From Symbiodinium sp. CCMP2592 (Eukaryota; Sar; Dinophyceae; Suessiales; Symbiodiniaceae), in the NCBI GenBank assembly GCA_905221615.1, contig CAJNDT010001319.1, positions 1 to 64,000 on the forward strand: DNA of 64,000 nucleotides, read 5' to 3'. The stretch's first letter is position 1. Every line of letters begins with the position of its first letter. The notes below the pieces were generated by a model. The model was not told the origin of the DNA. It worked only from the letters and a program-made list of their open reading frames with translations, and made no database searches. Made by a program: the position numbers and the translations under genes. Of this stretch, positions 6,055-35,194 are shown one piece after another.

Positions 6055-6214
6055 AGGGTTTAGGGTTTAGGGTTTAGGGTTTAGGGTTTAGGGTTTAGGG
6101 TTTAGGGTTTAGGGTTCAGGGTTTAGGGTTTAGGGTTTAGGGTTTAGGGTTTAGGGTTTAGGGTTTAGGGTTTAGGGTTTAGGGTTTAGGGTTTAGGGTT
6201 TAGGGTTTAGGGTT
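6055..6214. repeat. Interstitial telomeric array (TTTAGGG)n
   Basis: About 22 consecutive TTTAGGG units lie on the plus strand with one variant (TTCAGGG) near 6115. This is the plant-type telomere repeat, also used by dinoflagellates. Unique sequence continues on both sides, so it is interstitial here. It sits between the duplicated plus-strand genes and the G-rich satellite, in the gap between converging gene blocks. It could mark an old chromosome end, a healed break or a telomerase-mediated insertion. Confidence 0.97.
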
Positions 6215-6349
6215 CGCCAGCGCAGTTTTTGGACTGCGCAAGGCGCCCTAGGCACTTTTGCCGGAGCGAAGCGTTACATAGTTCAGCTTCCTTTAAGGGG
6301 ACTGCTGCTTAGTCCCTAAACCAATTTGTCAAAAACGGGTTTCTGGTTT

Positions 6350-8180
6350 TAGTGTTTGCGGTGTGGCCTGGGGCACTGGAATTTGGGATTTGGGGCCTCG
6401 GAGACCTCAATTCTGGCTTCGGGGCCTGGAGGCGAATTGGAATTCGGGATTTGGGGCTGGGGAAGGGACTGGATTTGGGTCTGGAGCCTGGCGCCTGGAT
6501 TTGGGACTGTGCCTGGATTTGGGGTCTGGGGCCTGGATTTGGAGCCTGGGGCCGTGGATTTGGCTCCTGGCCTGGATTTGGGGGGGCCTGGATTTGGGAC
6601 TGGTGAGGCCGGATTTGGAGTCTGGGCTTGGATTTGGGGTCTGGATTTGGGACTGGGGTGGGGCCTGGGCCTGGATTTGGGGGTCTGGAGCTTGGACCTG
6701 GGAGGCCTGGATTTGGGTGCCTGGTGCCTGGATTTGGGGCCTGGATTTGGGGTCTGGAGCCTGGGTTTGGGGCTGGGGCCTGGATCCGGGACTGCTGGAT
6801 TTGGGGTCTGGAGCCTGGATTTGGGGCTTGGTGGATTTGGGACTGGACCTGGATTTGGGGTCTGGAGCCTGGTTTGGGGCCTGGATTTGGGGTCTGGAGC
6901 GTGGATTTGGGGCCTGGAAGGGATTGGGCTGGGATTTTGGGGTGGGGGGCTTGGAGGGGGTTTGGAAAAAACCAAAAAACCTTATCTGGGGGTTTAGAAG
7001 GGGTCTGGACAAGGCCAAAAAGCTTAATTTGGGTTTGGAAAAGCACAAAAGCTCAATTGGGGGGCTTGGAAGGGGGTCTAGAAAAGCAAAGAAACCCAAT
7101 GTGGTGGCTTGGAGCGGGTGTCCCAGATCCCCAATTCCGGCACCCCAAACCCCCAAACCCCAATTCCAGGCCCCCAGGCCCCAAATGCCAGGCCCCAATT
7201 TTTTTGCCAACCAGGCCCAAAATCTCCGTTCCCGGCTCCACCAGACGCCCTCCAAGCCCCCCAATTCAGTTTCTTGTCCTTTTCCACTTTGAGGTGTGGA
7301 GTCTGGATTTGGCGCCTGGCCTGGATTTGGGGCGGGGCCTGGATTTGGGACTGGTGAGGCCGGATTTGGGGTCTGGGCTTGGATTTGGGGTCTGGGGCCT
7401 GGGCTGGATTTGGGACTGGGGTGGGGCCTGGGCCTGGATTTGGGGGTCTGGAGCCTGGATTTGGTGCCTGGTCTGGATCCGGGACTCCTGGATTTGGGGT
7501 CTGGAGCCTGGATTTGGGTGGAGCCGGGCCTGGGGCCTGGATTTGGGGTCTGGAGCCTGGATTTGGTGCCTGGTCTGGATTTGGGGCCTGGGGGGCCTGG
7601 ATTTGGGTGGAGCCTGGTGCCTGGATTTGGGGCCTGGATTTGGGGTCTGGAGCCTGGGTTTGGGGCTGGGGTCTGGATCCGGGACTGCTGGATTTGGGGT
7701 CTGGAGCCTGGATTTGGGGCCTGGTGGATTTGGGACTGGACCTGGATTTGGGGTCTGGAGCCTGGTTTGGGGCCTGGATTTGGGGTCTGGAGCGTGGATT
7801 TGGGGCCTGGAAGGGATTGGGCTGGGATTTTGGGGTGGGGGGCTTGGAGGGGGTTTGGAAAAAACCAAAAAACCTTATCTGGGGGTTTAGAAGGGGTCTG
7901 GACAAGGCCAAAAAGCTTAATTTGGGTTTGGAAAAGCACAAAAGCTCAATTGGGGGGCTTGGAAGGGGGTCTAGAAAAAGCAAAGAAACCCAATGTGGTG
8001 GCTTGGAGCGGGTGTCCCAGATCCCCAATTCCGGCACCCCAAACCCCAAACCCCAATTCCAGGCCCCCAGGCCCCAAATGCCAGGCCCCAATTTTTTTGC
8101 CAACCAGGCCCAAAATCTCCGTTCCCGGCTCCACCAGACGCCCTCCAAGCCCCCCAATTCAGTTTCTTGTCCTTTTCCAC
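6350..8180. repeat. G-rich satellite with an ~890-bp tandem duplication
   Basis: The plus strand is made of short units such as CCTGGATTTGGGG and GGTCTGGAGCCTGG. A long block is duplicated: 6841-7282 is almost identical to 7738-8180, an offset of about 897. Each block ends with a segment (6950-7085 and 7840-7985) built from the 43-47-bp repeat family seen in the opposite orientation at 8180-8510, then a C-rich segment. All long ORFs here are open because of repeat composition (Gly/Leu/Trp or Pro/Gln/Ser) and are not called as genes. The G4 runs could form G-quadruplexes on the plus strand. Confidence 0.9.
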
Positions 8181-8510
8181 ACCCTCTCCAAGCCCTGAAA
8201 TTCTTTCAAACCCCCTTCCAAAACCAGCAAATGTGCTTTTTGGTCTTTTCCCGATCCCTTCCAAGCGCAGAATTTGGGTTTTTTGGCCTTCTCCAGACCC
8301 ACTCCAAACCTACAAATTGTGCTTTTTGACCTTTTCCAAGCCTCCTCCAAGCCCCCAAATTGGGTTTTGTGGCCCTTTCCAAACCCCCTCCAAGCTACCA
8401 AAGTTGTTTTTTTTGCCTTTTCCAGACCCTCTTCCCGGCCCCCAAATTGAGCTTTTTTGCTTTTTCCAGAGCCCAACGGGTTTTTTGACCTTTTTCCAAA
8501 CCCCTTTCGG
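8181..8510. repeat. Imperfect 43-47-bp repeats (CCTTTTCCAAACCCCCTCCAAG type)
   Basis: Seven or so diverged units carry the signature TTTTCCA-A-CCC-CTCCAAGC followed by CAAATTGGG and a T run. The same family recurs at 23185-23497 and, in reverse orientation, inside the satellite at 6950-7085 and 7840-7985. The inverted pairs could fold into large hairpins. No coding potential is credited. Confidence 0.8.
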
Positions 8511-9760
8511 GGATTTGGGGCTTGGGGAACTGGAATGGGGTTTCGGTGCCTGGGGGACTGGAATTGAATCTAACTGGGGAGTTGGGGGCTGGGGGGCTGG
8601 AATTGGGGATTTGGGGCCCCATTCCTGGAATTGGGGATGGGGCCTGACTGGAATTGTGGATTTAAGGTTTGAAGGACGGATTTGGGGCTTGGGGGACTGG
8701 AATTGGGGGATTTGGGGCGTGGGGAGATGGCCTGGGCGTGCCTGAAATTGGGGACTTGGGGTCTGGGGGCCTGGAATTGGGAATTTGGGGTTTGAAGGGA
8801 AGTGGGCGGCCTGGGAACTCGAATTGGGAATTTGCCTGGCGGGTGGAGTTGGGGGAGGCCTAATTGGGGAGTTGGGGGCTGGGCCTGGGATTGGGGACCT
8901 GGGGGCCTGATTTGGGGGCTGGAGATGTCGGGGAGCTTGGCAGATTGGAATTGGGGATTTGAACACCGGAATTGGATTTGGGGCTTGGGGGACTGGGATT
9001 GGGCGCCTGGATTGATTGGATTTGGGGCCTCCTGGAGGATTTGGGGCTTGAGGGACTGGAATGATATGCCTGGGAAACTGGAATGGGGAGTGGGGCCTGG
9101 AATTGGGTTGGGGCCTGGCGGCCTGGAATTGGGGGCCTGGGAATTGGGGATTTGGGGTTTGAGTCTAATGGAGAGTTTGGGGCCTGGGTGGCTTGAATTG
9201 GGGATTTGGGGCTTGGAAAATTGGAATGGGGATTTGGGGCGTGGGATTTGGGGCCTGGGGGCTTGGCATTGGGGATTTAGGGCCTGCCTGGAATTTGGGA
9301 TTTGGCACCTGGCCTGGAATTGGGGATTTGGGATTTGAACAACTGGACTTGTGGATTTAGGGTTTGAAGGACTGGAGGCAGATTATAATTGGGGATTTGG
9401 GGCCTGGGACCCTGGAATTGTGGATTTGGGGCTTGGCGGACTGGAATTTGGGATTTGGGACTTGGGACCCTGGAATTGGGGATTTGGGGCCTATTGGGGA
9501 AAGGGGGCCTTTGGATTTGGATTTGGGGCCTCTTGGTGGATTTGGGGCCTGAGGGACTGGAGGACTGGAATTGGGATTTCGGGCCGAGGGGGCCTGGAAT
9601 TGGGGATTTGGTGCCTGAGGGACTGGAATTAGGGATTTGGGGGTGTGGGGGTGTGGAATTGGGGATTTGGTACGAATTGGGAATTTGGCCTGGAATTGGG
9701 GGACTGGAGTTGGGGTTTTGGGGCCTGGCGGCATGGAGTTGGGGTCTTGGGTTTTGGGGT
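8511..9760. repeat. G-rich satellite, second type (GGAATTGGGGATTTGGGG)
   Basis: This stretch has diverged short units with the core ACTGGAATTGGGGATTTGGGGCCTGG. They are related to, but distinct from, the units at 6350-8180. The array decays at both ends. ORFs across it are compositional artefacts. Confidence 0.85.
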
Positions 9761-10641
9761 TTATTCAGGGTTTTAAGTTATAAAGAAGTTTTGCTCAACC
9801 TCCCAATTCTGTTAAATCCCGCTTAGGGCCCAACCTTTGAATTTACTTAAACCCTGGTTTTGGCTCAACCCGCTGATAGCGAATTCCGCTTTTGAGCAAT
9901 TTGAAGCAATTTCTCTTTTTTAGGATCGCCCTTAAGTGCAAACACGACCCCTAAGTGCAACAGCGCGCCAAAGTGCAAAAGCACCCCTCCTTGCCAGCCC
10001 CCCCCTCTGTCCTGCCTTGCCCCGCTCTGCTCCCTCTGCCCTGCCCTTAACCCTGCTTCATTACGTTCAATTTTCTTTAACCTCTGTTCGGGTGGATTGC
10101 TTCACTTTTCCTAAATATGTTGGTTGGGCTGTTTCAATGTATTCAAAATTGGCCCGCTCTATTTTGAATAGACAAATTCCACTTTGCTTAAACTGAAGAA
10201 AGATCGTCGGTTGCTTTCCCTCAGGGCTTGCCACTTCGATTGATTTGAGTCTTGCTGGGAGGCCCATGGTCAACTGAAGTCATCTTGCATCCACCACATC
10301 TTGGTGTTCTATATTGTATTCTATGCGACCACACGTGCACCGGCTGCCGGCTTTTGTGAGAACGTTGTTGCATGCCCACTGGCTTGGCTTTGGTCTGGAC
10401 GAATACGATGTTTTGGCTGAAAGCAAGACTCCCTGCGAGCAAACAAGCTGCGGATGAATGCGGTCAACTCACACGCTGCTTCCGTTACCTCGCAGTATTG
10501 GTTCACAGTGCATCGTACGATCAGCTGGCCCCTGCAGTTTTTCATTCGTCGGGCTGGCGATGGCTTTGCATGTCCGTCTGTACAAACACACAAAGTGACA
10601 AACCGGGCCCGTTGCTGTCCGGGAATATTTTCACGGCCTAC
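9761..10641. other. Gene-free stretch 3' of the Helitron gene, with a perfect hairpin
   Basis: No gene is recognised. Two plus-strand motifs resemble the spliced-leader end: GTTTTGCTCAACC near 9786 and GGTTTTGGCTCAAC at 9856-9869. At 10140-10170 there is a perfect 10-bp inverted repeat, TATTCAAAAT and ATTTTGAATA, around an 11-base GC-rich loop. It lies about 470 bases beyond the stop codon of the minus-strand transposase gene, on its 3' side. Helitron-type elements carry a hairpin near the 3' end, so this is a candidate terminus, but no convincing CTRR end was seen after it. Confidence 0.5.
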
Positions 10642-11904
10642 TCACCTTTTGTTGTCTTTCCGTGGCCGCGGTGGTCGCTGTCGGGGTCTGCAGTCCGGAC
10701 ACAATCCCCTCTCGGTTGCTTGGAAACGCTTGTTGCACTTCCTGTTGGTGCACGTCTGCCATCCGTGCTGCCAAGTGCTGCGACTGGAGCAGTTCAGGCA
10801 GTGTCTCGCCTCGTCATTGCCAGCCGCTCCGCTCGGGAAGCTTTCCTTGCAGGCTCTGCAGAAGAACCAGCCCGTGCGCAGGCGCTTCGCCTTGCCCGAG
10901 AGCTGTTGCTGACAGGCGACGCAGGCGAGGGAGCTGTCTGGCATGGTTCGCATCCCGGGCGAGAAGTCCTTGGCCGATTTCCGCTCGCCGCAGACCGTGC
11001 AGTTCAGCTGGGTCGCGCTGAGGCGGCACGCGGAGCACTGGCGCTTGGCGTCGGCATCCTTCTGCGCCAGTTGGGCCCTCGGGAAAGCTTCTTCGACTTT
11101 CTTGAAGTGGCAGAGGCTGCATTTGACACTCTTCGCCAGGGCCGCCGACGCGTTCACGTTCCGCTTGAGCGGGCCCTTCGTGTTGATGGAGCCGCGCTGG
11201 CACGCCAGGCACTGGCCGCCGCGGTTGGCTCGGACCAGCTCCCACTGCGCGTGGGCGAAGAGGTCCCAGCTCTTGAGCTCTTTGCAGTTCTGACAGCGGG
11301 ACTTGGGCCAGCGCGCGTCGTGCATGGCTTGCCAGTCGATGTGCTCCCCTCGGAGCTTGCGCAGGAGCAGCTCGGGGCCTTCCGTGGCGCCACGCTGGAA
11401 GAGCCAGAGCGGGAAAGGTCGCAGGATGAGCACGTCCGATCTGTTCTTGACGCGGCTGGCCACCACGGTGCCGTAGGCGGCGTGGATCTTGGAGTCCACG
11501 TTCAAGTCAAGCATGACGGCCTTCCTGGGGCGGGTTTTGTGAAATTTTTCGATACCTATATGCGATGTGCTTAGACACACGTGCAACTCCGACTGCAGGG
11601 ACGTGGTGCATCTGCTGCATTGTCTGGCCTGCGGGGGGGCGTGTGTGCGCTTCTGGTGCACTGTGCTGTCTTTGTATAGCCGTCTGAGTGTGGCCGAGCG
11701 GCAACGTCTTGCCTTGACTGGCATGGGCCGTGATCGCGAAGGCCGGGATCAGAGGGATCTGCGTCCGGGTGACCTTCAGCACGGCCTGCTTTCGTCCTTT
11801 GTCCAGTCGCCAAGTGCGCGAGGTCGGGAGCACCGGGTAGAGCCCGGGTTCGTTCGTGCCCTCGAGCTTCCAGTCGGCGTCTTCGAATTTGACGTACCTC
11901 ACGT
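10642..11904 (-). CDS. Helitron last two exons: helicase motifs V/VI and five zinc ribbons
   Basis: Exon 11904-11700 encodes VRYVKFEDADW and then IPAFAITAHASQGKTLP, the helicase motif around the SxQGxT box. A GC donor at 11699 and an acceptor ending at 11525 join it to exon 11524-10642. That exon begins KAVMLDLNVDSK and supplies the final helicase motif GTVVASRVKNR. Five successive Cys4 modules follow (CQNC/CLAC, CSLC/CSAC, CTVC/CVAC, CRAC/CLNC and CxxxxC/CPDC), probably for nucleic-acid or protein binding. The stop is at 10642-10644. The tandem ribbon tail is an unusual addition to a PIF1 helicase. Confidence 0.82.
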
Positions 11905-14900
11905 CTGCGGCGGACAGAACGTGAATAGGGCAGGCAGGCGTGGGCAGGTGTCTTGTTTGTGATTCGCATGCAAGCGTGGGCATGTTTTGTTTGCCGTAGG
12001 CACAGGCTGCCCTGGGTTGTTTCCGGCTCGCGCAGCGCTCTCACATATCTTTTCGAAGGTGGTCTGACTTCTGTGGGAACTACAGGGGGCGCGTGGCTGG
12101 GCGTTTGTGAGTTCTATTGCGGCCCGGCCGCACTATGCTCGGCTGCTGTTCGTTCTCCTGCCATTCCCAGGAATGCACGTGGCCTAGGCGGCCTTTCAGC
12201 AGAAGCTTCTTGGAGCGGTCCACGTGGTGGGTCAGCGCGACGGGCATGCCGATGGCCAGGGGGAGCATGCCGCAGAGCCCCTCCGTGTCCATGTCGTGGT
12301 ACTGCAGCCAGCGGACTTTGGCTTCCTTGTCGCACGCCTGGGTCTGGAGCGCCTCCACGCCGGCCTTGTCCTTGGCCACGGACCAGACGAGAGGGGTCTC
12401 GGCGTCCCGGGCGTAGGCCTTCGCGCGGTCCTTGTTGATCTGGTACTTGGCGTCGTTGTTCGCCACGACCACCGTCGCCTCCACGAACTTTGGCTCTCGG
12501 AGTCGCGGGTCCCGGGGTCCGTCCACCACTCGCTTTCGGGACCGGCGCTCTTCCGGCGAGAGGGTGCAGCCTTCCACGGGGCGGCCGTGCAGGTACTTGT
12601 GGTTGTCTTCGGAAAGCCTTCCGTCTCGGAGCTCGTCCACGACCTGCGCAAGGGGCCGGGATGCAGTTTGAGTTTTGTTAATGTTTGCTCCTCTTATAGT
12701 TTCGTGGTATACTTGCTTGTCGTGTGCTTTCTGCACAGCGTCACATTTCTTTGGTATGGCGCATCTGTGCTGTGCTGCTGCTGCTGCGCCCGCCTCGTTC
12801 CACCAGTCGTCCTTGCACCTCACTCGCTGCCGTAGCTCCGTGACGCCTTGCACGGCGCCTTCCCAGAAGAGGCCCTGGCCGAGGTCCACGAGGGGATCCC
12901 GCTCCGGGCCTCCGGTGGCGGCCTTTCCCGGCGCCTGCAGCTTGGCGGGCAGGTCCGCCAGGAAGCCTCCGTCGGGCGGCGGGAGTTGGCGGAAGTCGCC
13001 GCTGAAGATCACGTTGAGCCCGGCGAAGGGCCTGACGTTGCCGGCGGCGTCGTGCTTCCACGGGTCTGCTCTGGGCTTTGTGCTTCGCGTGCGCATTTCG
13101 ACTTGCCCCAGGAGCCGGGCGCTGATCATGCCCACCTCGTCGGCGATGAGCCAGCGCCAGTTGGCGATGCGCTTGGCCGTGTCCGGCGTGCACGCCGTGT
13201 CGAGGCAGTCCCTGTCCTTGTTCAGGCCGCAGGCCGCGTGGAGCGTCTCCCCCTTGATGTCCGCGGCGTTGGTGGCTTGAAAGGCGGCGAACTGAAAGTC
13301 GATGCCCTGCACGAAGCCCAGGAAGTCCTCGAAGAGCTTGCGCACGTACTTGAGCACGTGGGTTTTGCCCGTGCCGGGGCGGCCGTGCAGCAGCCAGATC
13401 ATCGGCTCCTGGCTGCGTCGGACGGTGGCGTGCGCCCGCTCGAGGTTGTACTCGACGAGCACGCGCTCCACCACCAGTTTCAGGAAGTCGTGCTGCTCTT
13501 CGTTGAGGTCGTTCCGCACCTCTCCGCTCTCGAGCCAGGCTCGCAGCTGCGTGTTGCTCACGGCCCGGTGGTGCTTGGCGGTGCCTTTTCGGCGGCTGCC
13601 GTCCAGGCCCGACTTGTCCGCCTCTGCGTCCGCCGCCCTCTTGTTGCGGGAGGCGCGGGCGGCGGCCAGCATCTGGCTGGCGTCGCCGATGCCTTCGCCT
13701 GCGGTCGTTTCTTGGAGGAGGCGCCGAGCCGTCTCTCGCGGAACATCGCTGGCCGCGGACGCTGCGCCCAGCCAGAAGTTCTCGGAGATGCTCATCATCT
13801 GGACGGTCAGGTCGTGCTGGGTGCTGGTGGCGGGCGGCTCCGCTTCGTCGGGCGGATCTTCTTCTTCTGCGGCCGCCGCGGTTTGTTGGCCGGCTCCCCG
13901 CACCCGCGTCTTGGCGGCCTGCTCCAGCTCTTTCTCGTCGAAGTGGCAGACCTCGTCCCTCAGGTCCTCGTTGTCGCTGTTTGCGGCCAGGTCCTGGTCG
14001 GGCTGCAGGGACCGGGGCAGGCAGTACACGAAGGCGTAGTTCAGGACGTAGCGCTTCAGCTCCTCCGTGGGGAAGCCGTCGCCGTGCCTCCAGGCGCAGC
14101 GGAGGGCCTGGCGCCAGGTGCTCATTTCCGGCGTGCGGAGCTGGCCGATGTAGGGCACCGTCTCCGTGGCGTCCTGCGGGTTGCTGGTCCAGGGGCAGAA
14201 CAGCACGAGGATCTTCATGATGTGCTCCTCCTCGCTGCGGCTGCCGAGCGCGCCGTAGAGCACCGGCACTTGTGGTCTTTTCCGTGGACTGATCACCCAG
14301 TGGTGACGATGCGTTTGGGCCAGGATGCCGTTGCCTAGCGGCATCCAATCCTCGCCGCCCTCCTCCCGGATCAGGTAGTCGACGCCGCCCTGGAGCGCGC
14401 TGCGACCTTGTTGTCGTCTCAGCTTTGTCGTGCCGCTGTCTGTCAGCAGGGCGTGGTAAGAGATGTCTTTTTGCCCGCGAGCCAAGGCGGCCGTGGCCCG
14501 TTCCTGCATCTCCAGCTTCCACGGGTATTTGGCTGGGCGGGTGTGGTAGTGCCGCACGAACTCGAAGGCGGAGAGAGGTCGGACGCGCGGGTCTGTTCCG
14601 CGGTTCCCGTAGACGGTCCACAGCTGGGGGTGGGCGACCACCTTTCTTTTGTTCGGAGCGTCGAAGTCCCTGCTGAGGTCGCTCTCGAGCTTTTCTCGCT
14701 CCGGCTGCCACGGCCGGCCTTCGATGGCTGCTTGCAAGAGCTGTACTCCGTGTTGCAGGGACATGTCGGCGACTTGGGCGGTCTTGATGGCCTCCGCCGC
14801 CGTGGGGTCGTCGCGGCCGGCGTTGTCGATGAGGTTCGCGCATTCCACGGAGCCGCGGACGACGCCGCGGGCGAAGACGTCGGTCATGAGGCGCTTCGAG

Positions 14901-17900
14901 ACTCGGGCGCCCACGTAGCCGCTGGAGGGGTTGTTCTGCAGCTCCGCCTGCAGCTCTTTCTGGCCCTTCTTCCACTCCTGGACTTCGTTGACGGCGATGG
15001 GATTGCGCTTGTTGCCGTAGTCACAGGCGTAGCCCGCCTGCGCGGCCTGGTTCACCTGGGCCTGCTGGGTCATTTCGCGCAGGCTGTCTTGGGCGGGGCA
15101 GTCCTTGTCGCAGCGGCCGCACGCGGCGTGGAGGTCCTCCGTGATCGGGAAGCGATAGGGCAGCTGTACGTCGCCGTTGCAGCGGAGGGCGGCCAGCAAG
15201 GCGGGGTGGGTGCCGTTGAGGTTCGGGTCGTTGCAGGGTCCCCAGAGGCGACCGAGCGCGCTGCGCTTGCCTTTCACGGGCATGCTCATCTCCTCTGCCA
15301 GTCCCTTGCACACCAGCGTCGTCCTGTCGACCAGCTGCATCTCGTGCGGGAAGCCCGCCTTGCACTTGGTGGGGTCCTTCTTGTCGCGGCAGTGATCCAG
15401 GGGCAGGCGTGGGCCGCCCGTCTTCTTGGGCAGGTGCACGTGATGCTGCTTCAGCTGCTGCAGGGCTTCCACGTCCTCGTCCAGGAAGAGCCGCCGCCAG
15501 GTGGTGCCGTCCGTGGACGCGTCTGCCCTCTGGTAGTCCGGCCGGCTCAGGGCCAGGAAGGAGTCGCGGTAGGCGGGCCACTTGTCTTCCGTGTCCTGGC
15601 GCTTCTTTTCCCATTCTTGCGGGTCCCGGTAAATGGTGCGGCTGACGTGGGCGGTGTAGGTGCAGTACTTCTGGAAGAGGTCCATCTTGCGCTGCGGGCC
15701 CAGGGCGTGCAGCTCCGAGAGGGGCTTGAACTGGTGGAAGCACTGGAGGAAGAGCTGCGGGCGGGGCAAGCACATGTGGCGGTGGTTACGGCACCGAGTC
15801 TTTAGCTCTTTCGTGTGGTTTGTGTGTCTTGTCTTTATTGTGTCTGTGTGTGCGTGGTGTGTTGGTCTGGTGGTTTCTTACGAGCGGGCCTGGAAGTGGA
15901 TGTGCAGCACTCCGGACTTCTGGCTCTCGATGGAGCCGAAGACGGCGTCGAGCCTGCCGAAGATCCCCCCGCACGCCATGGCGTTGCTGCCGAATGCGTC
16001 TGTGCAGGGATTCTTGGAATTCCCGCAGTCGGGGCACTTCGGGCAGTAGCGGACGCCGAACAAATGCCGGAGCGCCAGCTGCACCAGGATGCGGAAGCCG
16101 TCCGAGCAGGCCACGGGGTCTTTGGTCAGTATGGCTCGCCGATCGTCGTAGGGCGGCAGTTCCGCGGCGAGTGTTTCCGGGTTCAGGCTGTAAAACTCCA
16201 CGTCGAGCTCGGGCTTGCCGCGACTCTGTGCGGCACGGTTGGTGGCGGACTCCTGGCTGAGGCTGGGGTCGGATTGCCTGGCGCGGGCCAGGCGCAGCAT
16301 CACCGTGTTGTCTCGCTCGGACGGGGAGAAGGTCACGAAGAGCGGCGTGCCGTGGCAGATGCGATTGGCGTGGGTTTGGTGGCGCATCGTCTTTCGCACT
16401 TCGTGCGTCCCGGGAGTGTTGCGGCTGCGCGCCGCGGTGTTGTCCAAGACCTGTCGCGGTTGTGTTAGAACTGATGCAGGCGAGCGCGGCTGGGTTCCGA
16501 TGGAAGCTATGGAGTCTTTTTTTGTTCTGGTGGTTGGTTGCTGCAGAATTGCTTGTTTGGGTGGCGGTTGTCGAGCGTGTGTTTCTTGTGATGTTATGTG
16601 GTGCTACTATTCAGCGGTAGCTTCGTTTGGTGTCGTTGGCCAACAAGTTGGGAGCCCGATGCGTGCTTTCTTCTGTTTGTTCTGGCCTTCTGATGGGAGC
16701 AGGTTCTTTTGTTTTTCCTCCTGCCTTGACGGCTGCCGGTGTTATTGTCGTGGCGAAGCGTACCTTGCTCAAGTCTCCGTTGACGGCCTTCACCTGGTTG
16801 TTGACGTCGAGGTACTGCCCTTTGACCAGGTCGTCGAGGATCTGCTTTCCGCCGTCCATGATCTCCTGGCCGCTCAGGGCTCTGCGTCCGCTGTTCTCGT
16901 CGGGGATGCAGTACATGAAGGTGTTCTTTTGCACGTTGACCATGGTTCTGAAGAGGTAGTTCCACAGGGTGAAGCCGAAGGTCCAGTCGCGCCGGAACTG
17001 GGTCTCGGCTCGCCGTTGCATGGCCGCCGCCCACGCGTGAATCTCTACCTTGGGGGCTTGGGGGTTCCTGCGGTGGCGTCGTCCTCGCTGCTGCCGGCTG
17101 TTGCTGGCCTGGCTGTTTTGGACGTCGGGACAGGCGGTCCCGTGCGCGAAGCAGAAGCTGAAGGCCGTGGCGAAGTAGAGCGGCTGGAACTGGTCCACCA
17201 GCATGTTGCTGGTGCGCACCTCGTAGGTTTCGAGGATCTTCTCGTTCTCCTGTTTGCTGCGGAGCTGGTCCGCGAGGTCGTTGAGGGCGGCCGTGGCGAC
17301 GGCGTTCTGGTCCTCTCGGTCCTGGTTGCAGCCTTCTGGAAGGACGGCGCGGGCGCGCTGGTTGGCGAAGATGGCGCCCGCTTGCTGCACGTCTTGCTCC
17401 GGGGCGTCCGTGGGGGCGGCCGCCTTCTGCGGCTGCAGCTTGTGGCTGGTCTCGTCCTCTTCGGTCATGCCGTGGATGACCTTCAGCACCTCCGGCGGCA
17501 CGCCGGCCTCCGGCAGCTGGGCTGCGGCCTCGCGGACGGCGGCTTGTCGCAGGTGCTGGAATGCGGGATGGCCTAGCTGCTGCATGTCGAGGATGAGGTT
17601 GACGACCACTTCCCTTCGCACCGTCGCCTGGTGGAGCAGGGTCTTGATTTCGGACTCGCTGGTTTTGCCCGTTCTGTTCGTTTTCAGGAGGATCCTCACC
17701 ACGTCGCCGAGAGCTTTTCCCGAGCGGGGAAAGTTGGGCGCGGGCGCCTCCGCGCTGGCCGCGGCCGCCTTCTGGGCTTCCGCGACTTCTGCGTCGTGTG
17801 CTTGCAGGTTGCGAAGCACGGCTTCCCATGGCAGCGGGAAGGTGAGGGCGTTGCCCCGGGCTCCGAGGCGGTGGTTGGCGCACTGGGCCTTCTCGTCGAG

Positions 17901-20176
17901 GGTGGTTCCCTCGCTGCGGTGCCGTGCTTCCATGGCCATGCAGATCAGCGTCGTGATGCAGGGACTCGCGCAGATCGTCTCCATGACGGTGACCTTCTCC
18001 GCGTGCAGGCGTGCCGGTGAGTATCCGGTCCACATGTCGTTGCACAGGCTCAGGGGCGGCAGCTCGCCTCTTTGCAGGTGCCACGCGCAGTCGCTGCAGA
18101 GGGGCACTTCACAGTGCTCGCAGAGGGTGTGCTGCCTCGGGTGCTGGGGGCAGGCCTGGCAGCGATGGTCCTCGGGGCAGCACAGGATGTCCCCGAACCC
18201 GGGGATGGTCACCGTCCAGTCGTCGAAGTTGGCCACGTCCCTGAGCTTCACGTCGCCGGCGAGGTCGTCGTAGTGCTCGAGGTACTTGTCGATGCTCAGC
18301 AGCTCATGCAGGCTCTCCGTGCTCTCCGCGTGGCTGCCGTCGTTGCAGGCCGGACTCTGGATGAGTCTGCGCCAGTCGATGCGGCCGCTGGCTGCCGTGT
18401 CGGCCACGCGTGGGTGGATGCAGGCGCAGCTGAAGCAAATGAGCGACTCCACTTTGTCTTTGCTGGTGGCCTCGGCGAAGCTGCGCAGCGCGCTCCTGTC
18501 CCGCGAGCTTCCCGCGACGGGCGCGGCCTCCCTGCATCGCAGCGCGATGGCCTCGTTGTAGACGCTGGTGAGTGCGTCGGCTGGCATGGGCTTGGGCAGG
18601 TGCTGAGCCACCAACCCCAGCTCCGGCGCGTGAGCGTCCTTGACGTGCTGGTGGAGCTCTTTTTCCGTTCCCAACGGTAGCGACCATGTGCACCCGCGGA
18701 ATGCGCAGAAGACCTGCGGCCAGGCCTCGCCGCTGTCCACGTTCTCGGCTTTGGCTTCGGGCGGTATGAGTGGCTGGGCTCGCAGGTGCGTGTTTGCGAA
18801 GCGCGTGAGCGCGTCTTCTAGCTTTCGTCTGGGATGGGTGGCCTTCGCGGCGACGGGCATGCTGGTGAGCTCTTCGAGGAGGGTGGGCCCGTCTTCCACT
18901 GGGGGAGCAGGCGCTGCTTCGGAAGTTTCTTCTGCTCCCTGCGCCGGGGCTTGCTGCTTGCTCTGGGCTCTGCTGGCTGCGGTCTTGCGGCGCTTGGGCG
19001 GGCGGGGCTCCGGGTGGGGCGGCGGCGGCGGAGGCGGCGGCGGCTGTGGGCTTGCTGCGTTGTGGGTCGGTTGGGGCTGGTTGGCTGCCCGTGGGGCTGG
19101 AGCAGGCGGCTGCTCTTGGCTGGGCACGAGCAGGTCGTAGTGGTCTCTTCCGTTGTACCAGAGATGTATGATTTCCGCGTTGTCTTGTCCTGCGTGGCGG
19201 AATCGCTCTGCCGTGTCTTGCACTTCGGTGTGCGTGCGCTCGCTTGTCTGGATGTGACCGTCGTCTGTTCGCCAGTGCAGGATTACGCGCTGTTGTCGCA
19301 TCAGGGTGAAGGCGATGATGGCCGTGTCGCCGCCCCAGTGACTGGCGTTGCTTTGGAGGTACTCGGCCTCCTGGTACCAGGCTTCCACTTGTTCCTCGTT
19401 TTCTTGGGAGGCCGCGTTGTCCTCGAGGTATTGGATGATGAGGGCTCGCAAGTGCACGCCGTTTTCCTCGCTTCCGTGTGCAAGTGCGTGGAACAGGCAG
19501 TTGCCGTCGCCCGTCATCTTCTTCAAGGTCAACATTCCGTGGAAGTGTTCCTGCAGGGCGTCGGGCTCGTCGGGTGCGTTTGGTTTGCTTTGGCTAGCTT
19601 GTGTAAGCAAGTTTCTTGGCGAGGATACCTGAAGGAGATTGGCCTGCCTGGATGCTGGGGCCCGGCTCCGGCTGTTCGTCGGAATTCCACTTGGCGCCTC
19701 CTCGTCGGAGCGGTGGTTCGGCGTGGCGCTGTTGAGCGGCTCCTGCTTCCAGCGTGTCTGTGTCGTTTCGCCGTGCGGCAGCGGCGGCCGTTGTTCTTTC
19801 GTCCTGCAGCTTGCTGGGCATTTATTGGTTTCGCTACTCTTTACGCATGCGGCTTGTGCTTCTTATGTGCGGTGGTTGCCTGTGTCCGACGGAACGCGCG
19901 TTCCAGGGCTTCGTCGTCTTCGGCTGTCCATTTTGGCTGCTGTAATGCCGGCTTTGGGGCCTGCAGGTTGTGATGTGGCAGATCGGCAAGGTAACTTCTC
20001 TTTCTATAACGACAATGCGCGCTTGGGTCCAGATTGGCTTTAATGGTCTTTTTTCGTGGCGCCTTTTTGCGCCGGCGTGTTGCTGTCTTTGCACCCGGGC
20101 GCGCGGACGTGCTCCGTGGTGGTGCTGTTGTCGGGAAGGTCTTCCATGCCTGACGAGCAAGCGGGTCTGTGTCCAT
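10642..20176 (-). CDS. Helitron/Helentron-type transposase: OTU protease, HUH Rep, PIF1-like helicase, zinc ribbons (spliced gene)
   Basis: This is a rolling-circle transposase gene with six predicted exons: 20176-19880, 19628-16764, 16450-15890, 15754-12124, 11904-11700 and 11524-10642. The frame is kept at all five junctions, giving about 2,813 residues. Domain order is a basic N terminus, OTU (about 130-270), Pro-rich linker, C2H2 finger (about 405-435), DUF6570-like region, Helitron Rep with HUH (about 1235-1240) and tyrosines 1483/1487, PIF1-like helicase (Walker A about 2032-2039), and five Cys4 ribbons. Helitrons nick and transfer single strands with Rep and unwind with the helicase; an OTU domain is known in the Helentron/Helitron2 branch. 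All key residues are present and no frameshift was seen, so it may be functional. The first exon and the true start are the least certain parts; coding sequence may extend towards 20,490. Confidence 0.88.
12124..15754 (-). CDS. Helitron exon: Rep tyrosines and PIF1-like helicase core
   Basis: This is the largest exon, 1,210 codons. Near its start it has DPTKCKAGFP, then YACDYGNKRNP at about 15031-15000. The Tyr-x3-Tyr spacing matches the two catalytic tyrosines of Helitron Rep. The helicase part has Walker A GRPGTGKTH (13384-13361), a Walker B with IADEVGM and the motif FSGDFRQLPP, all typical of the RecD/PIF1 superfamily 1B. The exon closes at SIVRPG before a GC donor at 12123. Very long ORFs on the opposite strand and in other frames reflect high GC at third codon positions. 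Confidence 0.88.
15890..16450 (-). CDS. Helitron exon: Rep (HUH endonuclease) domain
   Basis: These 187 codons, phase 0 at both ends, begin VLDNTAARSRNTPGTHEVRK. They include HGTPLFVTFSPSE, which matches the Helitron helicase-like N-terminal (Rep) family, a Cys cluster (CPKCPDC), then FGSIESQKSGVLHIHFQ. The His-Ile-His at 15904-15896 is the metal-binding HUH motif of the nickase. The exon ends in CAG followed by a GC donor (GCCCGC). Joining it to 15754 gives HIHFQ-LFLQCFHQF, which keeps the conserved spacing between the HUH motif and the following region. Confidence 0.85.
16764..19628 (-). CDS. Helitron exon: OTU cysteine protease plus DUF6570-like region
   Basis: This 955-codon exon starts after a CTTCAG acceptor at 19629 and ends with AAG before a GTACGC donor. 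It carries the OTU signature GDGNCLFHAL (catalytic Cys codon 19499-19497) and its closing motif DHYDLL (catalytic His near 19,140), so the deubiquitinase-type catalytic pair is intact. After a Pro-rich linker come a C2H2 finger (CxxxxC near 18700 with paired His) and a Cys-rich block with PLCSDC and LCNDMWTGYSP. The latter matches the region preceding Rep in large eukaryotic Helitrons (DUF6570-like). The last part (FGFTLWNYLF, then GQYLDVNNQVKAVNGDLSK) is the conserved lead-in to the Rep domain. Confidence 0.85.
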
Positions 20177-20632
20177 TTCTTTGGGAACGTGCCGTGACTG
20201 CGGCAGCTGTTTCGGCGCGCCTCGTCGATTTTGATTCTTCCCGCCTAGGTTTGCTGGGGGGGCGTGGGATCGTCAGGAGCGCTTGCAGTTTTTTCGGGCA
20301 GGCACCGGCGTCAGGAGCGTTAAACTGCACCTCGTGGCCAGGTAGTCCCTCTTGAAGGCTTCGAACTCCCAGCCGCTCACCTTGGCTTGCTTCATGACAG
20401 GCAATCGAGCTTGTGTCGTGTTTCTGGGTGTGTGGTCTGGAGAGCTAGGCATCTTGCCTCGTCGTCCTCGTCCGTCATGTCGGCCCATCGGCGACTGCTC
20501 CCGCGGGTCTGCATGTTGGTTTGACCTGCGTGCGCGATACAGGAGCGAAGTGTCGTTTCGTTTGCAGCCTTAGACGCACCTTCGCCGGCTGTGGGAGCCT
20601 TGTTGGATTGGTAGGTTTTCTGAGCAGAAAAC
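20177..20632 (-). other. 5' region of the Helitron gene, possible further exon
   Basis: The reading frame of the first called exon stays open upstream of its ATG to about 20257, where a polypyrimidine-CAG acceptor occurs, so a further exon is possible. A minus-strand ORF at 20488-20273 contains the phrase SGWEFEAFKRDYLATR. A diverged copy of this region (ATGWEIE ... NYLATR) occurs at about 60835-61065, with a stop inside, so the segment has been duplicated and may be old coding sequence or a terminal part of the element. No start codon can be fixed here. Confidence 0.4.
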
Positions 20633-20992
20633 ATGCTGCGACGCACAATGCTGGAAGACCTCACGTTGCCTCAGCACTGTTATTGACTGGAGCCACTCTT
20701 CAGGTCTTGTGCGTTTAGGGAAGAGTGGCTGTACGTGGGTCTGCTGACTTGGTAATTATGTTTGCAGCGCAGGCTTTGACGGATTTTTTGCTGAGTGGCA
20801 TTCCAATGCTTGTTCCTGGGCTTGCATGCATACAGGCATGTGTCTTGTCGCAGCGGTGTCTGGGCTTGCGAGTGCTATATACTGAGAGCCGTCTAGCTTT
20901 GGCTCTGTGGTGGCTGCTGACGTGCAGGAGCGCTTTCGCTTTTCTTGGCATCAGCTGCAGCGGATCGTCCGCACACCGCCTGGCTGCTGTTC
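20633..20992. repeat. Direct repeat, left copy, flanking minisatellite array 1
   Basis: This ~360-bp segment begins ATGCTGCGACGCAC and recurs at 23499-23866 in the same orientation with modest divergence. It ends with GGCTGCTGTTC exactly where the 41-bp array begins; in the right copy the same bases continue into unique sequence. It contains GCTATATACT and no convincing gene. The two copies bracket the array and the 23.2-kb repeat island. Confidence 0.9.
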
Positions 20993-23112
20993 CTTCATAA
21001 AATGCTCGTGGATAAGGATTCCAGGTGGTTGTCCTTCATAAAATGCACGTGGATAAGGATACCAAATGGTTTTCCTTCATCAGATGCACGTGGATAAGGA
21101 TTCCAGGTGGTTTTCCTTCATACAAGGCACGTGGATAAGAATTCCAGGTGGTTTTCCTTCATAAAATGCACGTGGATAAGGATTCCAGGTGGTTTTCCTT
21201 CATAAAATGTACGTGGATAAGGATTCCAGGTGGGTTTCTTGATGAAATGCACGTGGATTAGGATTCCAAGTGGTTTTCCTTCATGAAATGCACGTGGATG
21301 AGGATTCCAGGTGGTTTTCCTTCATAAAAGGCACGTGGATAAGGTTTCCAGGTGGTTTCCTTCATAAAAATGCACGTGGATACGGATTCCAGGTGGTTTT
21401 CGTTTATAAAATGCACGTGGCTAAGGATTCCAGGTGGTTTTCTTTCGTAAAATGCACGTGGATAAGGATTCCAGGTGGTTTTCCTTCATAAACTACACAT
21501 GGATAAGGATTCCAGGTGGTTTTCCTTCATAGAATGCACGTGGATAAGGATTCCAAGTGGGTTTCTTGATAAAATGCACGTGGATAAGGATTCCAGCTGG
21601 TTTTCCTACGTAAAATGCACGTGGCTAAGGATATCAAGTGCTTTTCTTTCATCAGATGCACGTGGATAAGGATTCCAGGTGGTCTTCCTTCATAGAAGGC
21701 ACCTGGATAAGGATTCCAGGTGGTTTTCCTTCATAAAATGCACCTGGATAAGGATTCCAGATAGTTTTCGTTCATAAAATGCACGTGGATAAGGATTCCA
21801 GGTGGGTTTCCTTCGTAATATGCACGTGGATAAGGATTCTAGGTGGTTTTCCTTCATAAAATGCACGTGGATAAGGATTCCAGGTGGTTTTCCTTCATAA
21901 ATGCACGCGGCTAAGGATTCCAGGTGTTTTTCCTTCATAAAATGCACCTGGATAAGGATTCCAGTGGTTTTCCTTCATAAAATGCACGTGGATAAGGATT
22001 CCAGGTGGTTTTCCTTCATAAAAGGCACGTGGATAAGGTTTCCAGGTGGTTTTCCTTCATAAAATGCACGTGGATAAGGATTCCAGCTGTTTTTTCTTCA
22101 TAGAATGCACGTGGATAAGGATTCCAAGTGGTTTTCCTTCATAAAATGCACGTGGATAAGGATTCCAGGTGGTTTGCCTTCATACAATGCACGTGGATAA
22201 GGATTCCAGGTGGTTCTTTTTCATAAAATGCACGTGGATAAGGATGCCAGGTGGTGTTCCTTCATAAAATGCACGTGGATAAGGATTCCAGGTGGTGTTC
22301 TTTCATAAAATGCATGTGGATAAGGATTCCAGGTGGTTTTCCTTCATAAAATGCACGTGGATACGGATCAGGTGGGTGGTTTCCTTCGTAAAATGCACGT
22401 GGACAAGGATTGCAGGTGGTTTTCCTTCATAAAATGCACGTGGATAAGGATTCCAGGTGGTTTTCCTTCATAAAATCCACGTGGATAAGGATTCCAGGTG
22501 GTTTTCCTTCATGAAATGCACGTGGATAAGGATTCCAGATGGTTCTCCTTCATAAAATGCACGTGGATAAGGATTCCAGGTGGGTTTTCCTTCATAAAAT
22601 GCACGTGGATAAGGATTTCAGGTGGTTGTTCTTCATAGAATGCACGTCGATAAGGATTCCCGGTGGTTTTCCTTCATAAAATGCACGTGGGTAAGGATTC
22701 CAGGTGGTTTTCCTTCATAAAGTGCACGTGGATGAGGATTTTAGGTGGTTCTTCTTCATAAAATGCCCGTGGATAAGGATTCCAGGTGGTTTTCCTTCAT
22801 AAAGTGTATGTGGATAAGGATTCCAAGTGGTTTTCCTTCATAAAATGCACGTGGATAAGGATTCCAGGTGGTTTTCGTTCATAAAATGCATGTGGATAAA
22901 ATTTCCAAGTGGTTTTCCTTCATAAAATGCACGTGGATAAGGATTCCAAGTGGTTTTCCTTCATAAAATGCACGTGGATAAGGATTCCAGGTGGTTTTCT
23001 TTGAAAAAAATGCATGTGGACAAGGGTTCCAGGTGGTTTGCCTTCATAAAATGCACGTGGATAAGGATTCCCGGTGGTTCTCCTGAATAAAATGCACGTG
23101 GATTAGGATTTC
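20993..23112. repeat. 41-bp minisatellite, array 1
   Basis: About fifty head-to-tail units fill this stretch. The consensus unit contains TTCATAAAATG, then the palindrome CACGTG, then GGATAAGGATTCCAGG and TGGTTTTCC, for a total of 41 bases. Because 41 is not a multiple of three, every frame is visited, and short ORFs with recurring phrases (KCTWIRIPGGF on plus, MHFMKENHLESLSTCIL on minus) appear. They are not called as genes. Single-base variants and small indels are spread through the array. Two larger arrays in the same orientation lie at 47.1 and 56.4 kb. Confidence 0.95.
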
Positions 23113-23498
23113 GTCCGAAACCGTAATTCTTCAGCTCCGGCCTTGCGTTGAAAGGCTTCAACCTTGATATTACCTCCAAATTGTGGTTCTGGGTCTTTTC
23201 CAAACCCCCTTCCAGCCTCCAGATTGAGCTTTTGGCCGTTTCTAGGCCTTTTTCAATTCCCCGAAATGGCTTTTTGGCGTTTCCAGACCCGCTGCAAGTC
23301 CGCAAACTGGGCTCTCTAGCCTTTTTCAAACCTTTTTCAAGCCCCAAATTGGGGGTTTTTTGGCCGTTTCTAAACCCTTTCCAAGCCCTCAAATTGGGCC
23401 TTTTGGCCCTTTTCAAACCCCTTCCAAGACTTCATATTGGGTTTTTGGGCTTGTTCCAGACCCCTTCCAAGCCCCAAATTGGGCTTTCTGGCCCTTTA
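23113..23498. repeat. Second island of 43-47-bp repeats
   Basis: From about 23185 the sequence repeats the pattern TTTCCAGACCCCTTCCAAGC, CAAATTGGG and a T-rich linker, the same family as at 8181-8510. The units are diverged. A minus-strand ORF crossing into the minisatellite is a product of the repeats. The left 70 bases look unique and hold nothing recognisable. Confidence 0.75.
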
Positions 23499-23866
23499 AT
23501 GCTGCGACGCACCATGCTGGAAGACCTCACGTGGCCTCAGCACTGCTATTGGCTGGAGCCACTCTTCAGGTTTTGTGTGTTTAGGGAAAAGTGGTTGTAT
23601 GTAGGTCTGCTGACTTGGTAATTTTGTTTGCTGAACGTCTGTGCAGGCCGTGATGGATTTTGCGCTGAGCGGCATTCCCATGTTTTGTTCCTGGGCTTGC
23701 ATGCATACAGGCATGCGTCTCGTCGCAGCGGTGTTTGGGCTTTCGAGTGCTATATACTCATGGCCGTCTAGCTTTTGCTCTGTGGTGGCTGCTGACGTGC
23801 AGGAGCGCTTTCGCTTTTCTTGGCATCAGCTGCAGCGGATCGTCTGCACTCCGCCTGGCTGCTGTT
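23499..23866. repeat. Direct repeat, right copy, flanking minisatellite array 1
   Basis: This is the counterpart of 20633-20992. It differs by substitutions and a short extra segment near 23630. It is followed by about 250 bases of unique sequence before the ankyrin gene at 24116, in which no gene was seen. Confidence 0.9.
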
Positions 23867-24115
23867 CGCTCCGGCTTGTTAAAGAAGTGGCGGTCGACCG
23901 AGCCTGACTTTAAGTGGCGTCTACATTGGACTGGCTGACTGTGTTGCGTGTCTCCCTTGCTGATTTTCTGGTCGCTCTTTTAACCGTGCATGACATTTTC
24001 TGGGAGGCACGGTCGATTGATTCGTGGACAGCATCGGCTTTCAGTTTTCTCCGCTCATGTGAGACTCACAATCTCGGGAGTTCTCCATGCCGTCGGCGTT
24101 TTCTTGGTCTGTGAG

Positions 24116-24967
24116 TTATTCTGAATCGCTGGAGTCTGAGTTCGCGGCCTGTATCGAGTTAGCGTAGAATACCAGCTCGCGTATGGTGGCCCCACACAGG
24201 GCGACGGTCTTTGGCGTGATTCCGTCGTTGTTCTCGGCCTCGAGGTTGGCTTGGTATTCCAGCAAGGTGAGGACCGGGTCTCTGTAGGCTTGGTCGCACG
24301 CGAAGTGCAGCGCTGTGTTGCCTTCCGGATCGCGATCGTCTACCCGCGCTCTTGCTTCTAGTAGTATGAACATGATGTCCCAGCGCTGTGCCATGGCTGC
24401 TTCGTGCAGGGGCGTGTAGTCGTCGCCTGGCTGCGGGTGTGGCGACGCCCTTGCGGCCAGCAGCATTGTTGCTACTTCGAAGTTGTCGTTTTGGACTGCC
24501 TCTAGCAGAGCCTGGTCGTTGGCCCGTCGTGTGACATCCGCTCCCGCTTCCAGGAGAAGCTTGACGATGTCGGAGTTGTTCTTGTGGGCTGCGAGCAGCA
24601 GAGCATTCGTGTGGTAGCAGGAGGCGTCGGGGTGCTGCGGTCGGCGGAGGATGGCTTCGACTTCTGTGATATCTTCTTCCTCGATCGCGTCCAGTAGCTC
24701 CGTCTCGGCCTTCGGGTTGATGTCGACGTATGGAAGTAGGATTAGGAACAGTTCCTTGACGTCGGAATCCAGGAGATGCTCGTCGCGAAGCTCGGCGGAG
24801 TTGCTCTGGCGAAGTAGCCGCTGCTGAAATCGGTTTGCCTTGATCTTCGGTTGCAGCTGCGTGGCGACGTCTCGGACCTGGCGGTGTCCTTCTCCCAACT
24901 CTACGTCGGCAATCTTCTCGCCGCTTGCTGTCATGTATACCGGTACAGTCCTCCTCGAGAGCTCCAT
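24116..24967 (-). CDS. Ubiquitin-like/ankyrin-repeat protein, group A copy 1
   Basis: This is a single-exon gene of 283 residues. The start (MELSRRTVPVYM) was chosen because it aligns residue for residue with the starts of paralogues at 52795 and 63768. Residues ~10-70 resemble a ubiquitin-like fold: a strand-turn with SGEK, a helix, then FQQRLLRQ in the place of ubiquitin's QQRLIF. A hinge with AILRRPQHPDAS is shared by all group A members. About five ankyrin repeats follow (for example TPLHEAA and TALHFAC with LLEAGADV loops), ending in a Ser/Asp tail. Ankyrin repeats bind proteins, so a scaffold or adaptor role is plausible but not shown. It is more diverged than the other two group A copies. 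Confidence 0.85.
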   Translation of the reverse strand: MELSRRTVPVYMTASGEKIADVELGEGHRQVRDVATQLQPKIKANRFQQRLLRQSNSAELRDEHLLDSDVKELFLILLPYVDINPKAETELLDAIEEEDITEVEAILRRPQHPDASCYHTNALLLAAHKNNSDIVKLLLEAGADVTRRANDQALLEAVQNDNFEVATMLLAARASPHPQPGDDYTPLHEAAMAQRWDIMFILLEARARVDDRDPEGNTALHFACDQAYRDPVLTLLEYQANLEAENNDGITPKTVALCGATIRELVFYANSIQAANSDSSDSE

Positions 24968-26680: not shown

Positions 26681-26946
26681 CTTCTTGCTTAGTTACACTT
26701 CCTCGTTCTTCGTGTGGACGCAGAGGGCTGGAGGCGCCGGCTTGTGCAGCTTGTCTCGAGCAGCAATTGCAGACAGGATATGTTTTCAGAGTCGCATGCG
26801 GCAATGGCCTGTCTGCGCAGTGGTTACCCGTCGCTTGCAGTTTGTTTCCTTTCTTGCTCGCTCTCCAGTAAAGGAAGGCTTCCGTTCCTGCTCTCTGCTT
26901 TCTAGATAAGCGAGCTGGTTCTCGCAGGGAGTCTGCATTCTTTAGA

Positions 26947-29250: not shown

Positions 29251-29615
29251 GCTTGTCTGATGGCTTTGCCGGAGACTGGATCGGTGCATTTCTGTTTGTT
29301 TTTGAGCCGGAGTGCTGCGCAGGGTGGTGTTGTTGGCTGCATTTTGCAGTTGTGCAGGCGGTGTGGCGTGGAGTGGGTGGCCTGGACATATCTGGTCGGT
29401 GTTACGTCGGTCGGGTCTTTTTCGTCGCATCCTTTTGTTGAGAAGCTTTCGTTGCAATTGTTCTTGATGTGTTTTTGTTCGAACCGCCGATTGCCGCTTG
29501 CGCTCTATTTTCGTCTTGCTGACGGCCTGGGCCACATTCTGTATTCTGGCTCGCAGGTTTCTGCGAGGCAGCTCGTGTGGCCCGGACTTGAAGCTCTAGG
29601 ACTGGGACTATTCGG

Positions 29616-35150: not shown

Positions 35151-35194
35151 GATCGGCTGGTGCGTGTCGCTTGGCGGGCTACCAGCAAAGTATT

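Follow-up and report, generated by a model that had tools for sequence, protein, structure and literature searches.

A candidate giant Helitron2-like element joined to telomere-type repeats in the dinoflagellate Symbiodinium sp. CCMP2592

Among the described systems closest to the locus studied here are the Helitron2 (proto-Helentron) transposons, such as FoHeli of Fusarium oxysporum, which are about 5-11 kb long, encode a fused Rep nuclease and helicase (RepHel) with an N-terminal zinc-finger-like part, bear an inverted repeat with a hairpin at one end, which is matched by an inset inverted repeat close to the opposite end, and in some cases have the transposase on the opposite strand, as described in PMC5148889. 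The Helentron group also encodes RepHel, has a simple TT as its junction and includes elements for which OTU proteases are reported (PMC4067079). Helitron-like elements are already known from the subtelomeric extensions of the nematode Oscheius tipulae, for which a large Pif1-containing gene (3985 amino acids in the text of the source, 3895 in its figure legend) is described together with poor scores in standard Helitron searches; 11 of the 12 telomere extensions bear similar sequences (PMC8022731). We analysed 64,000 nucleotides (the window: the whole stretch, positions 1 to 64,000 of contig CAJNDT010001319.1) of Symbiodinium sp. CCMP2592, which is given as S. tridacnidorum in PMC8045281, and found a RepHel transposase gene near one end of a larger repeat unit, which also contains ankyrin genes and terminates directly against telomere-type repeats. 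This unit extends beyond the coordinates of an earlier note on the same DNA, which had described the transposase alone.

The unit shares with Helitron2, as presented in PMC5148889, the RepHel protein and the N-terminal zinc-finger-like part, and the one end that was reached is similar, with hairpin and repeat, the inset inverted repeat being seen solely on the ends of neighbouring units; it differs in its size, probably at least 58 kb, and adds an OTU domain, a multi-ribbon tail, telomere-tract junctions and an ankyrin cluster. Compared with the Helentrons of PMC4067079, the OTU domain is in the same polypeptide, upstream of DUF6570, and the junction is TTTAGGG instead of TT. The gene resembles that of O. 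tipulae (PMC8022731) by its large size and Pif1 part, a likeness by description between a nematode and a dinoflagellate host. Terminons are likewise giant elements joined to G-rich telomere repeats, although they are retroelements with an RNA template (PMC12477314). In the literature searched, subscription papers being outside its coverage, neither a telomere-linked or OTU-bearing dinoflagellate Helitron nor a giant OTU-bearing, ankyrin-carrying unit with a telomere junction in a dinoflagellate was found in print.

An intact RepHel enzyme, many near-identical copies with an open helicase exon, a fixed hairpin end at (TTTAGGG)n and an ankyrin cargo were observed. We read them as a giant, probably at least 58 kb long, Helitron2-like rolling-circle element tied to telomere repeats, and we put the probability of this reading at about 0.5. 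The coordinates of the features are given in Table 1.

Table 1. Features of the transposase gene and of the surrounding repeat unit in the window (ORF, open reading frame; TRF, Tandem Repeats Finder).
Feature	Position	Strand	Basis or remark
Telomere-type tract (TTTAGGG)n, directly abutting the unit end	6055..6212	+	TRF span 6055-6214: period 7, 22.9 copies, 98% matches
Conserved terminal sequence: 11-bp CGCCAGCGCAG and hairpin, perfect 7-bp inner stem	6213..6248	+	First two bases, TT, ambiguous with the tract
Part of the giant repeat unit in the window	6213..64000	.	Contig continues to 65043
Transposase gene, 12 mapped coding exons	10642..20586	-	Spliced alignment and homologue alignments; translation start unlocated
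Exons 1-6 (5' to 3')	20586-20458, 20380-20300, 20244-20214, 20149-20049, 19960-19854, 19813-19648	-	
Exons 7-12	19550-16725, 16450-15890, 15754-12794, 12643-12132, 11897-11703, 11524-10642	-	
5' linker exons (WADMTDEDDE / GWEFEAFKRDYLATRCSLTLLTPV)	20297..20586	-	
OTU cysteine protease domain as modelled	19098..19580, coding from 19550	-	Cys in DGNCLF, His-Tyr-Asp at the end
DUF6570 domain	17559..18071	-	Pfam 41.5 bits, cut-off 24.3
Rep domain exon	15890..16450	-	HUH motif LHIHFQ at its end; Pfam Helitron_like_N 46.5 bits, cut-off 28.9
Y-x3-Y motif YACDYGNKR	15005..15031	-	
Pif1-like helicase core	12977..13411	-	Walker A at 13384-13361; Pfam PIF1 39.1 bits, cut-off 25.9
Five Cys4 zinc ribbons, Stc1-like	10645..11367	-	Same five ribbons in P0013 and P0014
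Ankyrin ORF nearest the transposase	24116..25120	-	Pfam; within the collinear stretch of C1527, C2209, C1286, C1331 and C1588
Ankyrin ORFs 2-4 of eight	30697-32826, 34134-35357, 35975-36970	-	Pfam above cut-off
PD-(D/E)XK nuclease ORF	37102-38595	-	PF12705, 30.6 bits
Ankyrin ORFs 5-8 of eight	51815-52939, 54043-55182, 61402-62454, 62779-63930	-	Pfam above cut-off
Decayed second linker-exon copy	60869..61066	-	Contains two in-frame stop codons and follows an ankyrin gene

The minus strand from 20586 to 10642 is a single and real Helitron-type transposase gene, which encodes in this order the OTU protease, DUF6570, an HUH/Y2 Rep, a Pif1-like helicase and five Cys4 ribbons, all of them already contained in large open frames between 19862 and 10642. 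When the six 3' exons are joined, they give 2750 positions including the stop codon, with no internal stop; the spliced coding sequence from 19559 on has 0 stops against 44.7 expected under a first-order Markov chain (minimum 30 in 200 runs), and its GC content at third codon positions is 0.858. The five introns between these exons measure 274, 135, 150, 234 and 178 nt, are all of the GC-AG type and have, each of them, a GC content below that of every one of the six exons. The earlier note had proposed an apparently complete dinoflagellate transposase of the Rep-helicase kind that has an OTU domain as well as a ribbon tail and is joined in frame by introns, and on these points it is supported. 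Of the 163 homologues supplied for the junction test 156 matched, and their alignments span the five junctions in 77, 109, 61, 46 and 44 cases, some of these homologues being predictions on short ENA or JGI contigs (for instance P0081, 3338 amino acids on a 12.8-kb contig).

The number of introns is nevertheless larger, with 11 in the present model, and so is the gene. Spliced alignment adds six 5' exons up to 20586, in frame and without a stop, that are homologous to the CCMP2592 gene models P0157 and P0168, and the start at 20176, from which the gene had been drawn to 10642, is therefore too late, its ATG being unsupported. The donors of the six 5' introns are GC, GC, GA, GA, GC and GC, so that among all 11 modelled introns GC occurs in nine, GA in two and GT in none. 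In Symbiodinium minutum GC donors are almost as frequent as GT, according to PMC4083563, and their use here is for this reason not strange in itself. The six 5' introns are based on one custom alignment program with a minimum intron of 40 nt; one of them is exactly 40 nt and has unsure limits because this is the shortest length allowed, one 5' exon has just 31 nt, and such details may shift. The first 104 codons of the open frame 16611-19862 are non-coding in this model. A search of the window for a spliced-leader relic, with up to 3 mismatches allowed, found none, and Rfam gave nothing at the gathering score.

All motifs named in the earlier note are present, together with the five ribbons, on the minus strand: the OTU box DGNCLF with its closing DHYD, the HUH motif LHIHFQ, the Y-x3-Y motif, Walker A (GRPGTGKT), Walker B, SQGKT and ASRV. 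Pfam backs DUF6570, Rep and PIF1 above their cut-offs, and places OTU (19.7 against 23.3) and a Stc1 match in the tail (17.5 against 24.8) below them. Modelling confirms for the N-terminal domain a predicted OTU fold with catalytic Cys and His. The catalytic positions are conserved in the aligned family, with the two HUH His residues kept in 50 and 51 of the 52 rows that have letters there (13 gaps), each Tyr of Y-x3-Y in 63 of 64 rows and the Walker A Lys in 63 of 63; the family profile meets PIF1 chains of the PDB at an E value of 1.7e-22. With its two His, its Y-x3-Y and the fused Pif1-like superfamily 1 helicase, the predicted protein has the Rep and helicase parts of the Helitron superfamily (RepHel). 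The predicted structure of the tail (predicted local distance difference test, pLDDT, 69) has Stc1 as its best fold match at an E value of 0.064, which is weak and carries little weight, and the relative P0013 reaches 25.5 for Stc1, above the cut-off.

Within this superfamily, the earlier assignment as Helentron-like did not hold. The C-terminal apurinic/apyrimidinic endonuclease that defines Helentrons is absent by Pfam, which found no endonuclease family in the tail of the window's protein or in eight ribbon-tailed relatives (P0013, P0014, P0063, P0081, P0086, P0091, P0096 and P0107). No protein labelled Helitron2 or Helentron stood among the homologue-search matches. The traits of canonical Helitrons (Helitron1), a 5' TC, a 3' CTRR with hairpin and an A/T target, were not found: the one end that was reached differs from them and lies at GGG/TTT. 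A scan of positions 10641-9700 for a canonical 3' end (CTRR and hairpin) gave 0 hits against 0.2 in 30 shuffles; the conserved end lay further out. Long inverted repeats that bracket the gene alone indicated no end among the 25 of 178 pairs shown.

Copies were sought in the organism's own genome (1,098,105,373 bases in 5,383 contigs) with the helicase exon, the intron 12793-12644 being read through. The scan gave 975 candidates and 37 scored matches, of which 33 are free of stops; eight are full-length at 96-100% identity, four are partial at 97%, and 25 form a subfamily at 82-83%, the two subfamilies being about 17% apart in protein. These counts are lower bounds. The earlier note had named a search for near-identical copies with different flanks as a check, and only decayed copies with no conserved ends as the contrary outcome; near-identical copies, open in the helicase exon, with differing flanks and a conserved end are what was found. 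Beyond the tract, a comparison of the first 400 bases sorts 11 ends into seven kinds of flank: four copies share one kind, two share another, and the remaining five differ from all others. That alternative haplotypes or misjoined repeats could have multiplied one locus is very improbable in view of these seven kinds and of the distance between the subfamilies, even though C1286 and C2103 (99.8%) and C1590 and C2164 (93.6%) share long flanks and may be duplicates, and a 2.7-kb repeat of 99.2% identity, at 1-2726 and 3034-5763, occupies the left flank of the window. The latter is a direct repeat on the far side of the telomere tract, and its two parts are separated by a GA-rich stretch. A pair of relatives, P0157 and P0158, with 99.4% identity over 944 amino acids on two contigs that differ in size, was counted as amplification.

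The end of the window's unit lies 4.4 kb past the transposase stop codon. Flanks of at most 10 kb on each side were fetched for ten more copies, and ends were followed in 11 copies of the main subfamily (window included) and two of the other, out of the 37 scored. In the sense of the gene, all 11 end in ...CTGCGCTGGCGAA ahead of CCCTAAA repeats; their final 36 nt (..GCGCAGTCCAAAAACTGCGCTGGCGAA) are identical in 11 of 11, the final 39 nt in six, with one change in three copies and two changes in two, and the orientation and phase of the tract are the same in all. Both followed copies of the 82-83% subfamily, which lie on C1326, end in ...CTACGCTGTCGAA before the same repeats. On the plus strand the end reads TTCGCC.. 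(or ..GGCGAA in the other sense), sited at GGG/TTT of the tract. Tracts of at least three perfect units were found neither in 82,574 bases of upstream flank nor in 67,705 bases between gene and end, nor in 57,786 bases of the window beyond the end; these sets overlap, amount to about 192 kb with the window counted once, and come from copies of one unit that are not independent.

Past the tract, the neighbouring end in five of the 11 copies bears CGCCAGCGCAG in exactly inverted form, which resembles the description of Helitron2 ends in PMC5148889. In four of them it starts 23 nt from the tract; the fifth, on C2502, is a variant that has these 11 bases at a greater distance. We read these ends as those of neighbouring, perhaps related units. 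The otherwise different flanks of the window, C1527 and C2209 all start with CCCTCAAG after the tract (gene sense). In the downstream flank of C1588, about 1.4 kb past the unit end, a second CCCTAAA tract adjoins a TTTAGGG tract, the two being inverted in order. The two C1326 copies face away from the 37.7-kb segment between them (17108-54797), of which the edges alone were read and which has outward-facing telomere-type tracts at both ends with a transposase unit beyond each.

In the opposite direction the repeated sequence extends far upstream of the gene. Nine copies were compared there with the window, at 97.9-98.9% identity, C2502 being omitted as its contig ends 242 bases upstream; C1527, C2209, C1286, C1331 and C1588 are collinear with the window over 10 kb upstream of the helicase exon, to 25877, a stretch that includes a 41-bp array and the first ankyrin gene, and C1590, C2164, C2710 and C2103 are collinear up to their contig ends. 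Samples of 2 kb match further on in C1527 (31.5-33.5 kb), C1331 (35.8-37.8 kb) and C1588 (40.8-42.8 kb), and in C1286 at 35.9-37.9, 45.9-47.9, 55.4-57.4 and 63.6-64.0 kb, with 93.8-99.85% identity over the sampled stretches of the four contigs; C1286 alone reaches 64000 and continues to match to 65,043 at 99.5%. Because the samples of C1286 match to the end of the window, the unit is probably at least 58 kb long, the full length resting on two contigs and on samples. The span 30697..63930, with seven of the eight ankyrin ORFs and a PD-(D/E)XK ORF, was repeated at the points sampled.

An ordinary Helitron of at least about 14 kb, from about 6.2 to 20.6 kb or slightly beyond, could instead have stood beside a host ankyrin cluster and been duplicated later together with it. 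The relic of the linker exons downstream of another ankyrin gene would suit this, as would the CCMP2592 models in which linker exons and ankyrins of two types occur together; no boundary appeared, however, in the 10 kb upstream of the helicase exon (to 25.9 kb in five of the nine copies and to the contig ends in four) or at the points sampled further on, the sample points alone being read, and we consider such a history improbable. In P0156 and P0168 the linker exons come after ankyrin repeats, and we leave open whether ankyrin may be a plain N-terminal domain of the transposase, since the predicted models fuse both, yet with two different ankyrin types.

If the unit is a rolling-circle element with a tie to telomere repeats, its end would be nicked by both Tyr of the HUH domain, the Pif1-like motor would unwind one strand, and Rep would join that strand to the telomeric G-strand, always after GGG, by which copies would accumulate at or near chromosome ends. 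The tract-side end would be the leading (5') end, and the transposase gene would lie opposite to it in strand, as PMC5148889 reports for some Helitron2 elements. On the plus strand the G-rich sequence leads into the hairpin end, as it should if the leading strand had been passed to the 3' end of a telomere. The OTU domain may shield the transposase or a partner from ubiquitin-linked removal, and the ribbons may guide the transposase to DNA or chromatin. A stronger version, which we advance tentatively and think rather unlikely, is a chromosome-end transposon: Rep would transfer the hairpin-marked leading strand onto the 3' G-overhang of the telomere (TTTAGGG-OH), the element would become the new chromosome end and be capped by telomerase or the next element, and stacked units, separated by short telomere tracts, would build dinoflagellate subtelomeres together with a tandem ankyrin gene family. 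Such transposition would leave the traces described above: the orientation of the G-strand, a phase that is fixed after GGG, stacked units and a pair that faces outward from tracts 37.7 kb apart.

Several observations weigh against a telomere-tied rolling-circle element. Its far end was never reached, since the contigs stop at 65,043 and 67,015, and the comparison past 43 kb depends on three samples from a single further contig, C1286; openness of the other copies was judged on the helicase exon alone, and neither an empty site nor an event of transposition was observed. At about 50-184 bp the tracts are short, hence now interstitial and not proven chromosome ends, and the tract may travel with the unit. 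Since the copies share ancestry, 11 of 11 does not stand for 11 independent events. The unit is also very large for a Helitron, maize Helitrons being described as up to 39 kb (PMC6431247).

Subtelomeric recombination could give the same picture. In yeast, the Y' elements are chromosome-end repeats that include a helicase gene and spread by recombination; they are not known to encode an HUH Rep nuclease. A helicase gene in a chromosome-end repeat block is also found in fungi, where it is of the RecQ type, unlike that of the window (PMC7473861). The main rival is accordingly a Y'-type subtelomeric duplicon, spread by recombination or break-induced replication and not by the transposase, so that the RepHel gene would travel along as a resident or a domesticated passenger. 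This would account for the great size of the unit, for its host-like ankyrin genes and its satellite arrays, for a tract of the same orientation at the boundary, for blocks in line with tracts between them (C1286, C2103, C2710, C1331 and C2502) and for the outward-facing units of C1326. It fits less well with an exact terminus with hairpin and inverted repeat, with two diverged subfamilies that both end in ..GAA at the tract, with the conserved catalytic residues and with the presence of the RepHel family in several dinoflagellate genera. As the evidence does not separate transposition from recombination, we go no higher than even odds for the rolling-circle element and regard the duplicon as a serious but somewhat unlikely explanation; a duplicon of this kind with an intact RepHel gene would also be unusual.

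If the rolling-circle reading is true, a major marine algal group has a transposon of this class that carries ankyrin genes over tens of kb and joins itself to telomere repeats, which would join Helitron biology to chromosome-end biology, with one nematode precedent in the literature searched. It would be a possible source of the large ankyrin families of these algae and would make the use of a telomere overhang as a target by an HUH enzyme testable. The conserved OTU and ribbon modules are clear biochemical targets.

The homologue searches gave 75 proteins in the first search, 89 rows in the profile search (of which P0149-P0153 are other helicases) and 14 in the search with the OTU exon. All relatives with a named organism are dinoflagellates, from Effrenium, Cladocopium, Durusdinium, Symbiodinium, Polarella and Amphidinium. 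Pattern-limited scans of IMG/VR and of prokaryote contigs gave no relatives, and a viral or bacterial origin was rejected. The tails of the relatives, where present, have up to 26 CxxC motifs, and at least seven in most long proteins; ribbons are general in the dinoflagellate family, so the five-ribbon tail is not the lineage-specific trait that it had been taken for. In a tree of 65 rows (60 proteins covering more than 0.7 of the core and five hand-picked) the window falls with full support within a clade of 26 rows, which has five of the six OTU-labelled rows; the sixth, P0123, is a long branch elsewhere, and the other large clade, of 33 rows, has none, although an altered OTU domain within it could escape detection. 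Labels were given by motif, with both motifs in the window, P0023 and P0040, the closing motif alone in P0028, and the Cys box alone in P0105 and P0123. Pfam finds OTU above the cut-off solely in P0123; the window, P0040, P0156, P0163 and P0168 score below it, and P0023 and P0105 have no match at all. A test of the label on the tree gave six changes, and as 500 of 500 shuffles came out equally low, it showed no sign of clustering; the N-terminus is missing from many rows, and therefore only the positions of the carriers were used. From these positions and the CxxC counts, the zinc ribbons look old and family-wide, and the OTU domain looks like a mark of the window's clade.

Some minor observations concern the relatives and the cargo. 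The tail of P0063 from Polarella glacialis owes its 26 CxxC motifs to a near-identical tandem ribbon, as if the array were expanding. In the gene models P0156 and P0168, both of Symbiodinium sp. CCMP2592, ankyrins of two different types are fused to the linker and the OTU exon of the transposase, and the name anks1b is carried by P0157, P0158 and P0168. The PD-(D/E)XK nuclease ORF inside the unit is a possible second enzyme of the element. The same 41-bp satellite forms three arrays inside the unit, at 20990-23110, 47057-50150 and 56586-60761 of the window, and the first of them is flanked by a 370-bp direct repeat (89%) at 20633-20992 and 23499-23867, just upstream of the linker exons.

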